A DNA stretch of 64,000 bases from Brachyspira alvinipulli ATCC 51933 (lineage in GTDB: Bacteria > Spirochaetota > Brachyspiria > Brachyspirales > Brachyspiraceae), in assembly GCF_000518245.1 (NCBI RefSeq), contig NZ_KI912402.1:426544-490543 (forward strand), read 5' to 3'. Shown one piece after another: positions 14,532 through 56,400 of the stretch (within the stretch, counting starts at the first letter, position 1; each line of letters opens with the position of its first letter). The notes below the pieces were generated by a model. That model was not told the origin of the DNA. It ran no database searches and worked only from the letters and a program-made list of their open reading frames with translations. A program made the translations under genes and the position numbers.

Positions 14532-14966
14532 ATGAAATATAAGATATTGATATTGGCATTAATATTTTCAATAAATTTGTTTGCGAAAAGCGATATAGCT
14601 ATTATTGATGCTGCTGGAAGGGGTGATATAAATAAAGTAAGAACACTTATAAAAGAAGGAGCTAATATTAATCAGCAGGATAGGATAGGGGAGAATGCAT
14701 TAATAGAAGCTGCAGAAGGCGGACATATAGAGATTGTAAAATTACTTATAGAAAATAAAGTAAATTTAAATCTTAAAAGCAAATGGGGAAGAACTGCTTT
14801 GATGAGAGCTTCTTCAAAAGGCTATGCTAATATAGTAAAAGTTCTTGTAAATGCAGGAGCCGATTTAAATATAAAAGACAATAGAGGAAGAACAGCATTA
14901 ACTTATGCTAATCAAAGAGGACATAAATCTATAGTGCAGATTTTAAAAACTGCTGGAGCAAAATAA
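14532..14966 (+). CDS. Exported ankyrin-repeat protein 1
   Basis: Signal peptide KYKILILALIFSINLFA and then about four ankyrin repeats over residues 25-144 with the usual core (GENALIEAAEGGHIEIVKLL, GRTALMRASSKGYANIVKVL). I start at 14532, which has AGGAG nine bases upstream; the longer frame to 14469 begins on the promoter. Ankyrin repeats bind proteins; this one should act in the periplasm. First of three tandem paralogues that share spacing and an AKxxGAK ending. Confidence 0.9.
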   Translation: MKYKILILALIFSINLFAKSDIAIIDAAGRGDINKVRTLIKEGANINQQDRIGENALIEAAEGGHIEIVKLLIENKVNLNLKSKWGRTALMRASSKGYANIVKVLVNAGADLNIKDNRGRTALTYANQRGHKSIVQILKTAGAK

Positions 14967-14997
14967 AATTTATTTAAATATACAGGAGATACATTTT

Positions 14998-15438
14998 ATG
15001 AAAAAAATTATAGTCTTAATTTTTATGATGATTTTAAGTTTATCTTTATTCCCTCAGCAAAAAATGACTCCTTTAATGGAAGCTTTAGAAAATAAAGATA
15101 CTAAAAGAGCTATAGAATTAATAAATTCCGGAGTAGATCTTAATACAAGAGATAGAAGGGGAGAAACACCATTGATAGAAGCAGCAGAGGAAGGTTTGCC
15201 TGAAGTTGTAAAATTATTAATAAGCAAAAAAGTTAATTTGAATGATGTAAATAATAATAAGAGGACAGCTTTGATAAGGGCCGCAACTAGAGGATATGCT
15301 GATATAGTAAAATTATTAGTTGATGCTGGGGCTAATATTAATATAAAGGATAAATATGGTAAAACGGCATTAATTTATGCTAGTGAAAGAGGTCATAAAA
15401 ATATAGTTAAGATTTTAAAAGATGCAGGAGCAAAATAA
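14998..15438 (+). CDS. Exported ankyrin-repeat protein 2
   Basis: 146 residues: signal peptide KKIIVLIFMMILSLSLFPQ, then ankyrin repeats (GETPLIEAAEEGLPEVVKLL, KRTALIRAATRGYADIVKLL, GKTALIYASERGHKNIVKIL). It starts 31 bases after the first gene with CAGGAGAT upstream. It resembles the third gene more closely (both have MEALENKDTKRAIELINSG-like first repeats) than the first, so the last duplication was probably between genes 2 and 3. Confidence 0.9.
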   Translation: MKKIIVLIFMMILSLSLFPQQKMTPLMEALENKDTKRAIELINSGVDLNTRDRRGETPLIEAAEEGLPEVVKLLISKKVNLNDVNNNKRTALIRAATRGYADIVKLLVDAGANINIKDKYGKTALIYASERGHKNIVKILKDAGAK

Positions 15439-15466
15439 AAGATAATTTTTTAAGGAAATATATTTT

Positions 15467-15901
15467 ATGAAAAAGATTTTAATTTTATTAATGATTTTTA
15501 GTATAAGTTTATTATCACAGCAAAAAAGAACAGCTTTAATGGATGCTTTAGAAAAAAGAGATATAAAAAGAGCAATAGAGCTTATTAATTCTGGTGTTGA
15601 TATAAATACTAAAGATAGGATGGGAGAAACACCATTAATAGAGGCATCTGAAGAAGGACTTACAGAAGTTGTTCAGCTTTTAGTAGATAAAAAAGTAAAT
15701 TTAAATACAGGCAATGTTAGAAACAGAACAGCTTTGAGCAGAGCATCTCATAAAGGACATACAGAAATAGTACGCATATTAGTAAAAGCAGGTGCTGATG
15801 TCAATATAAAAGATAAATATGGTAAAACAGCTTTGACTTATGCTGTTCAAAGAGGTCATAAAGATATTATTGAAATACTTAAAAAAGCAGGTGCTAAATA
15901 A
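15467..15901 (+). CDS. Exported ankyrin-repeat protein 3
   Basis: 144 residues: a short signal peptide (KKILILLMIFSISLLSQ) and four ankyrin repeats ending EILKKAGAK. It begins 28 bases after gene 2 with AAGGAA upstream. Closest to gene 2 in sequence. The trio makes a small operon whose products may bind one envelope partner or several related ones. Confidence 0.9.
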   Translation: MKKILILLMIFSISLLSQQKRTALMDALEKRDIKRAIELINSGVDINTKDRMGETPLIEASEEGLTEVVQLLVDKKVNLNTGNVRNRTALSRASHKGHTEIVRILVKAGADVNIKDKYGKTALTYAVQRGHKDIIEILKKAGAK

Positions 15902-48029: not shown

Positions 48030-48350
48030 TTATTTTATAATTACAGCAGTACCATAAGCAATAACTTCAGTAGTTCCTTCCATTACAGATGATGATGAAT
48101 AATGTATTCCTATAATAGCATTAGCACCTAATTTTTTGGCTTCTTCAATCATTCTTTTGGTTGCTGTTTCTCTGGCTTCATTTATCATTTCTGTATAGCC
48201 TTCAACTTCTCCGCCTACTATGTTTTTTAATCCTGCAAGCAAGTCTTTTCCTATATGTTTAGCCTGAGCAATATTTCCTTTAACTAATCCTAATAATTCA
48301 TAATTATAACTGCTTGGTAAATAATCTGTTGTGTATAGTTTTATATCCAT
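48030..48350 (-). CDS. YbjQ/UPF0145 family protein, copy B
   Basis: 106 residues. IDxxL-type core: LVKGNIAQAKHIGKDLLAG, VGGEVEGYTEMINEARETA and GANAIIGIHYSSSSV. The family forms pentameric rings and may bind metals; the role is unclear. It has an almost identical neighbour 12 bases upstream. AGGAG-like sequence lies before the ATG (GGAGATTTAA). Confidence 0.9.
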   Translation of the reverse strand: MDIKLYTTDYLPSSYNYELLGLVKGNIAQAKHIGKDLLAGLKNIVGGEVEGYTEMINEARETATKRMIEEAKKLGANAIIGIHYSSSSVMEGTTEVIAYGTAVIIK

Positions 48351-48362
48351 TTAAATCTCCAG

Positions 48363-48689
48363 TTATTTTAATATAACAGCTGTGCCATAAGCAACAACTT
48401 CTACTGTACCAGGTAATACAGAGGATGATGAATAATTTATACCTATAATAGCATTAGCACCTAATTTTTTAGCTTCTTCAATCATTCTTTTAGTCGCTAT
48501 TTCTCTAGCTTCATTAAGCATTTCTGTATAGCTTTCAACCTCACCGCCTACTATGTTTTTTAACCCTGCAAGTAAATCTTTTCCAACATGTTTAGCTAAA
48601 GATACATTTCCTTTAACTAATTCCAATGGTTCATAATTATAATTGCTTGGTAAATAACTTACTGTAAACATTTTGATATCTGAACTCAT
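48363..48689 (-). CDS. YbjQ/UPF0145 family protein, copy A
   Basis: 108 residues, very close to copy B (NIVGGEVESYTEMLNEARE, LGANAIIGINYSSSSV, VVAYGTAVILK). First gene of the leftward run. The close match and 12-base gap indicate a tandem duplication kept in frame, possibly to make a mixed ring. Confidence 0.9.
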   Translation of the reverse strand: MSSDIKMFTVSYLPSNYNYEPLELVKGNVSLAKHVGKDLLAGLKNIVGGEVESYTEMLNEAREIATKRMIEEAKKLGANAIIGINYSSSSVLPGTVEVVAYGTAVILK

Positions 48690-55168: not shown

Positions 55169-56149
55169 TTATATCTTATTTTTTAATATATTGCTAAATT
55201 CTCTATAGAACATATTAAATAAAGAATTTTCATTTGCTTCTGTATTCCATTGATTATGCCAATGATACGCATAGCATCCTGTAAAAAACTCTTTATAAGA
55301 TGTAATATTTCCATTATAATTTGTAAAGAAATCATTAGGTGATGTTACAGGATAATCATATCTATTTTTATCTGTTATATTCCAAAGAGGATCAAAAAAA
55401 GCACATGGGAACACCATTAAATTTTTTAGCTGCACATTAGAAAAATTGAATATTATCCATGGTAAAACAGTTTGCTCTTTTTCTATTATTTGAACAGTTT
55501 CTTCTATCATATTTTTATCATTGATATATAATATAGCAGTATTAGCATAAGATTGTTTTTCCCATTGGTAACAAAAACTATTATCCAATATATCCGAAAA
55601 ATCCCTTAAAAACATTACATCTAAATCAAAGTATACTATACCATTATATTTATTTTCTACTAAATACTTATATGGTATTAATAATCTAAAAGCATCTGCT
55701 CTTGCTGGTAATTTTTTCTTTTGATTAAATATATAATCAAATTGTTCAAAACATGTATTTTTTATTTCTAATTTAGGGTTATATGTTTTTATTTCAATAA
55801 GATTTTCCAATTCATTAATATATTTATTATTTAAATTTTCTTTTGTTGTTTTACTATCAATCCATAAATATATTTTAGGATTTTTTTGTGTACATAGTAA
55901 TGACTTTATTGAAAGTACATGTTTTTCATTTATTTTTCCATACCAATATGAATGGTATGATATATTTGTGTTAATATTTTCTTTTTTATTATTTTCTAAA
56001 TTATTTTTTAGGTATTCTATAGCATATTCATTGTCTGTATATAGTTTTGAATCATCAAGATGTTTAAAATTTGTATATTTTTCTCCAGATATAGGCATAT
56101 CAGGGAATTTGACTTTTTTAAAATTAAAAAATATCATATATTCCCCCAT
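55169..56149 (-). CDS. DXD-motif glycosyltransferase (sugar-binding region family)
   Basis: 326 residues. It fits the PF04488-type GT32 pattern: IYLWIDSKTTKENLN early, then RADAFRLLIPYKYLV and GIVYFDLDVMFLRDF, whose Asp-Leu-Asp binds metal and sugar nucleotide. W- and Y-rich ending AYHWHNQWN. It would transfer a hexose or HexNAc to a surface glycan. The gene begins 77 bases from a GCGAT microsatellite, and a palindrome lies just upstream of the start. Confidence 0.8.
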   Translation of the reverse strand: MGEYMIFFNFKKVKFPDMPISGEKYTNFKHLDDSKLYTDNEYAIEYLKNNLENNKKENINTNISYHSYWYGKINEKHVLSIKSLLCTQKNPKIYLWIDSKTTKENLNNKYINELENLIEIKTYNPKLEIKNTCFEQFDYIFNQKKKLPARADAFRLLIPYKYLVENKYNGIVYFDLDVMFLRDFSDILDNSFCYQWEKQSYANTAILYINDKNMIEETVQIIEKEQTVLPWIIFNFSNVQLKNLMVFPCAFFDPLWNITDKNRYDYPVTSPNDFFTNYNGNITSYKEFFTGCYAYHWHNQWNTEANENSLFNMFYREFSNILKNKI

Positions 56150-56167
56150 AGAATATACAATTTAACA

Positions 56168-56185
56168 TTTATCAAGGTTGATAAA
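56168..56185. promoter_or_regulatory. Palindrome upstream of the glycosyltransferase
   Basis: TTTATCAA-GG-TTGATAAA, perfect 8-bp arms with a 2-nt centre, 19 bases before the minus-strand start codon. Its position fits a repressor operator. Confidence 0.45.
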
Positions 56186-56226
56186 AATTGTTTACATAAT
56201 AAAAAAATTATTTTACGGTAATATTT

Positions 56227-56293
56227 GCGATGCGATGCGATGCGATGCGATGCGATGCGATGCGATGCGATGCGATGCGATGCGATGCGATGC
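56227..56293. repeat. GCGAT pentanucleotide microsatellite, 13.4 copies
   Basis: Thirteen perfect GCGAT units and two more bases, 67 bp of 60% G+C in a roughly 27% background. It lies in the 316-bp gap between the divergent glycosyltransferase start (56149) and the nrdA end (56466), 77 bp upstream of the former. Tracts like this vary in copy number by slippage. Outside a gene, the effect would be on promoter spacing or RNA structure. Confidence 0.97.
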
Positions 56294-56400
56294 ATATTTT
56301 ACTCCGTTGTTATTTTTTTATATAAAAACATCATATTATAATTTGAACTTAAAGTCAACTTAAAATTGTTTTATTAATTATATTTTTGTAGTTTTAAAAT

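Follow-up and report, generated by a model that had tools for sequence, protein, structure and literature searches.

A pentanucleotide repeat as a probable reading-frame switch in a leader ORF ahead of a glycosyltransferase-like gene of Brachyspira alvinipulli

What can a run of identical pentanucleotides do a short distance ahead of a glycosyltransferase-like gene? The question is raised by the window, a stretch of 64,000 nucleotides from the genome of Brachyspira alvinipulli ATCC 51933, which carries 13 perfect ATCGC units on the minus strand (GCGAT on the plus strand) at 56227-56291. The tandem-repeat call covers 56226-56293, with 13.6 copies and 100% matches. The distance from the end of the array to the gene is 77 bp for the ORF start at 56149 and 89 bp for the likelier start at 56137, and a preliminary description had given the thirteen units and, for the ORF start at 56149, the 77 bp correctly. 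It overlooked that the array sits within an ORF. A chance origin of the array is excluded because the unit occurs in at least four copies in 19 of the 26 Brachyspira genomes, and the control with the reversed unit gives zero in all 26. The seven genomes in which no ATCGC array of at least four units is present are G001, G006, G010, G012, G013, G019, and G023. The DNA fold around the array region is unremarkable (z 0.57).

Read along the minus strand, the locus begins with a promoter-like site, TTGACT-17-TATGAT (56358-56330), identified by a consensus scan and matched by like sites in relatives. It is followed by a Shine-Dalgarno sequence GGAG (56302-56305), located 6 nt 5′ of the start codon and conserved in the related leader L205, and then by the ATG at 56295, a single C, (ATCGC)13, a spacer, and the glycosyltransferase gene. 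Because promoter, GGAG site, and ATG stand 5′ of the array, the array is part of a leader ORF, in which it starts 4 nt from the beginning. In three-phase translation, this ORF (56134-56295, minus strand) encodes 53 aa at n = 13, the predicted ON state, and reads M-(HRIAS)n-...KYYRKIIFLLCKQFLSTLINVKLYILWGNI-stop. Five is not a multiple of three, and the frame therefore shifts whenever a unit is added or removed. With n = 13 it remains open through the spacer, and its stop codon TGA (56136-56134) overlaps the ATG of the glycosyltransferase (56137-56135) in the sequence ATGA (56137-56134). One extra unit brings a stop 19 nt beyond the array and two extra units bring one 14 nt beyond it, these early stops of both OFF phases lying at 56208-56226 on the minus strand; the single phase n = 1 mod 3 stays open to the glycosyltransferase start. 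At the window locus, a promoter and start signals precede a short leader ORF, which contains a frame-breaking SSR by which leader length is set according to n mod 3. Judged from the sequence, the repeat is very probably a reading-frame switch in a leader ORF that governs the expression of the glycosyltransferase. For the window spacer taken alone, which is short, the open frame could arise by chance (P 0.25), and the case for a frame switch therefore rests on the family.

The preliminary description had offered a different mechanism, in which copy number would alter promoter spacing or the geometry of a bound regulator and a palindrome near the gene start would be the operator, as in nadA/NadR of Neisseria. 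The precedent is real, and both array and palindrome do lie 5′ of the gene; we nevertheless consider this mechanism very improbable. The best-scoring promoter lies upstream of the array, and the consensus scan found none reaching 9 of 12 on the same strand between array and gene. Moreover, the array keeps its position with respect to promoter and ATG even where the genes are unrelated, and of the three phases one remains open as far as the gene. The order of promoter, start codon, array, and gene is kept across the genus, from which it follows that the array is transcribed and that it is probably translated as well. The palindrome itself, TTTATCAAGGTTGATAAA, is present as described at 56168-56185, with arms TTTATCAA-GG-TTGATAAA, and folds as a small RNA hairpin. 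A genome search returned it as the sole perfect copy in the 3.42-Mb genome. Its uniqueness, together with its location in a transcribed, open-frame spacer, makes a shared operator unlikely. What survives of the earlier proposal is phase variation of a glycan-type gene through changes in copy number, which is likely and well supported by the sequence, whereas promoter geometry and operator find no support.

The family on which the frame-switch reading depends was assembled by fetching 36 further array entries from the source genome and 18 other Brachyspira genomes. Two of the entries, L186 and L187, probably represent a single locus, seen at two contig ends that overlap. Each array lies 3-34 nt past a start codon, in the sense of the following gene, with L180 and L197 truncated by a contig end. 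For each further array one phase opens a long frame and the remaining two usually stop within 25 nt. Grouping by leader similarity yielded 17 families, 16 of them with a scored gene, and the expected family counts were obtained from dinucleotide shuffles. In 14 of the 16 families, at most 35 nt separate the end of the open phase from the start of the next gene, against 2.8 expected (P about 4e-15); in 12 of the 16, both other frames also stop within 25 nt, against 0.8 expected (P 1e-16). The position of the open-phase stop tracks the distance to the gene start (rho 0.71 with all loci and 0.69 with families as units), and at four loci (L182, L195, L211, and L213) the leader reads in frame into the gene. 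Leader promoters score on average 10.7 of 12, versus 7.9 for stretches drawn at random from these loci, and a site of the type TTGAC(A/T)-16/17-TATAAT is found upstream of nearly all related leader ORFs. Several leaders have no ribosome site and carry their ATG 7-10 nt past the -10 element, an arrangement suggesting leaderless mRNA. It could be argued that the array is a neutral microsatellite that leaves expression unaffected, and one orthologue without an array would agree with this; given placement and frame structure that are non-random across 16 leader families and a count of zero for the reversed unit, neutrality is hardly credible.

The genes that follow these leaders are diverse and include lipoprotein-like proteins, a GT61 protein, an MBOAT protein, a chemotaxis receptor, a BspA-type repeat protein, a TM2 protein, a creatininase, and a glycine-reductase subunit. 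The leader before the subunit of glycine/sarcosine/betaine reductase (L198, genome G015, n = 24) thus precedes a metabolic rather than a surface gene, and its open phase ends 76 nt short.

It may be asked whether the leader peptide is itself the product of interest, that is, a functional small (HRIAS)n protein, itself phase-variable, with the glycosyltransferase as an incidental neighbor. Its good start and ribosome signals and the recurrence of the repeat peptide would suit such a role. Within families, however, pN/pS of the open frame is 0.7-1.0 where measurable, and the other frames give similar values. The open frame has fewer stop codons, in part by construction, as it was chosen for openness. 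Peptide tails differ among families, and the open frame ends at whichever gene comes next, with start-stop overlaps. Since the open frame shows no amino-acid constraint, a function in determining how far the ribosome reaches fits the data, and a functional peptide is disfavored to the point of being quite improbable.

A mechanism for the frame switch at the window locus can be outlined in conditional terms. The number of units would change by slipped-strand replication. In the ON phase, the ribosome translating the leader would melt a hairpin over the glycosyltransferase start and re-initiate there through ATGA coupling; halting at the overlapping TGA, it would sit on the start-region hairpin. 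In the OFF phases, it would halt about 70 nt short, the hairpin would stay closed and little enzyme would be made, and the untranslated leader may additionally be terminated early. The predicted outcome is an on/off expression of the glycosyltransferase which is random and reversible. The hairpin in question (56133-56161, minus strand) has 12 bp and a 5-nt loop and is predicted to hold the AUG and part of the GGGGG of the glycosyltransferase; it folds with -9.1 kcal/mol (z -3.56), and its sequence is identical in L205.

A start-masking hairpin was also considered as a general rule and was discarded, since it is strong solely in the window family, namely, in the window leader and L205. The other loci must for this reason use another actuator. 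In other Brachyspira leaders, weak terminator-like hairpins exceed the shuffles (7 of 16 versus 2.0 expected), and the actuator may accordingly differ from locus to locus. The same enrichment favors a version of the frame switch in which the effect comes from termination of the uncovered leader, by Rho or at a weak hairpin, and not from unmasking of the start codon. As this is a sub-version of the frame-switch explanation, the confidence placed in the two overlaps. It gains from the strong terminators that several Lachnospiraceae and rumen Bacteroidales have after the ATCGC array, and from the streptococcal pil1 locus, which operates by termination. At the window locus, no terminator-like site was found in the spacer, and the ATGA overlap and the start-masking hairpin suit translation better. 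Termination as the actuator is therefore a possibility to be taken seriously, albeit a rather unlikely one.

The gene under the proposed control is a putative DXD glycosyltransferase of 322 aa, GT32-like, at 55169-56137 on the minus strand. The ORF list places its start at 56149; 56137 is likelier because GGGGG stands upstream of it. The DXD motif lies inside YFDLDVMFL and is conserved among orthologues. The Pfam family PF04488 (Gly_transf_sug) gives a sub-threshold match of 20.4 bits against a cut-off of 23, and the NCBIfam search also returned a sub-threshold match only. Comparison of the protein with the sequences of solved structures gave nothing useful, and a structure model built from 3 sequences (mean pLDDT 36) was too poor to use. 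With its DXD motif and weak Pfam match, the product looks like a glycosyltransferase, as the preliminary description had named it; for the surface glycan named there as its target, we can only infer such a role. Orthologues occur in 3 other genomes, namely, G020 (98%), B. hampsonii G005 (75%), and G015, where the gene is broken. The B. hampsonii orthologue lacks an array upstream, and the gene therefore does not require the switch.

The window locus and its sole array-bearing orthologue, in G020 (97% identity), both have n = 13, so that no length difference is seen at this particular locus. Differences in copy number between close relatives are seen at L031 and L208 (n = 22 versus 11, flank identity 98%) and at L211 and L206 (n = 16 versus 14, with identical flanks of 107 nt). 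L211 also differs from L213 (n = 16 versus 4, at 99.4%), where a value of 4, in metagenome assemblies, may stem from collapse of the graph. Copy numbers of such arrays were not trusted, since an assembly graph with k=21 could shrink an array to just these 20 nt. The ON phase is found in 6 of 37 entries, below one third. L031 (G000:C1:274000-282000, minus strand) is the second ATCGC leader array of the source genome; it is one unit short of the open phase, and the next gene encodes a protein of 304 aa that has no Pfam hit and carries a methyltransferase-like motif, DVGSG. Two other repeated features belong to the window, a tandem pair of ORFs of about 107 aa at 48030-48689 (333-bp units, 85% identity) and a long-period tandem repeat of 463 bp at 14817-15901, whose unit reads as ankyrin-repeat-like.

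Outside Brachyspira, several Lachnospiraceae and rumen Bacteroidales have ATCGC in the early part of short ORFs that precede strong intrinsic terminators; in one phase, a stop codon falls close to the base of the terminator, at least for L068, L043, and the majority of the Bacteroidales loci. No terminator was detected at L073 and L113, and the one called at L111 is weak. In five loci of Lachnospiraceae and a Eubacterium (L068, L082, L043, L039, and L070), the array lies in a short ORF followed by an intrinsic terminator and often by a gene with a signal peptide; from their sequences, these look like phase-variable attenuators. The rumen Bacteroidales have several MKIN-type short ORFs per genome, with 4-7 ATCGC units before strong terminators (L222-L224, L232, L233, L241, L242, L249, L250, and L253), n = 4 being again a value that may reflect assembly collapse. 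Sampling within lineages gave an array in 6 of 18 genomes of the G030 family (control zero) and in 1 of 299 of the L068 family; as this one is the seed alone, the array is sporadic there. In the phylum sample, 18 of 247 genomes have the array, 17 of the 18 being Brachyspira. Three arrays on viral contigs stand in unrelated contexts. L106 (Ignavibacteriae, plus strand, n = 10) has its array close to the beginning of an open frame of 4.8 kb and is similar to a classical contingency locus of the in-gene kind, while the contig end following the array in L094 reads as Illumina adapter (agatcggaagagcacacgtctgaactccagt) and is an assembly artefact.

ATCGC leader ORFs might represent a general plug-in switch, with frame-controlled translational coupling in Brachyspira and intrinsic terminators combined with ATCGC in gut Lachnospiraceae and rumen Bacteroidales (possibly also Treponema), brought about by lateral spread or by repeated choice of the same unit. 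We advance this idea tentatively. If true, many Brachyspira genes for lipoproteins, glycosyltransferases, and other products would be governed via one repeat unit. The leader-peptide version known so far comprises two pilus loci of one streptococcus, whereas about 36 loci are predicted here, with an on/off state that can be predicted from n mod 3 and is directly testable. They would help to explain surface variation in intestinal spirochaetes. The set also suggests that surveys confined to SSRs in annotated genes or promoters miss the leader-ORF class.

Among known systems, translational phase variation by SSRs within genes is exemplified by CTCTT in opa of Neisseria and CAAT in lic1A of Haemophilus. 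The window locus shares with them slippage in a coding SSR that shifts the frame and leaves one phase in three ON, and differs in that its SSR belongs to another ORF, which lies upstream and ends at the start of the regulated gene. SSRs that act on promoter spacing are found at nadA, with NadR, and at fetA. As in these, the SSR lies upstream of a surface-related gene, but in the window the promoter comes first and the SSR follows within an ORF. Searches for the letters of the repeat or of the peptide returned chance matches only, and SSR phase variation in Brachyspira was described nowhere in the literature searched, which was mostly without subscription papers and is hence weak evidence of novelty. 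Leader peptides, attenuation, and Brachyspira are all absent from a 2025 review of phase variation (PMC11868660). The switching logic has a proven precedent in the pil1 and pil3 loci of Streptococcus gallolyticus, in which a terminator is controlled by (GCAGA)n lying within a leader ORF (Danne et al. 2014, PMC3894217). Gain or loss of units at pil1 alters the frame and the leader length, and ribosomes that reach the hairpin turn on the surface gene (PMC3894217). Common to pil1 and the window is the succession of promoter, ribosome site, and the ATG of a short leader ORF, followed by a pentanucleotide array within that ORF. The units are GCAGA and ATCGC, respectively; the long leader of pil1 overlaps an intrinsic terminator, whereas the window has none and shows instead a stop-start overlap and a start-masking hairpin; and two of three phases are ON in pil1, against one in the window. 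Unlike pil1, the present system belongs to a spirochaete host, with many loci across the genus and some leaders that are apparently leaderless. The missing intrinsic terminator is the reason why the window locus is not filed as a member of the pil1 type, although it would work alike.
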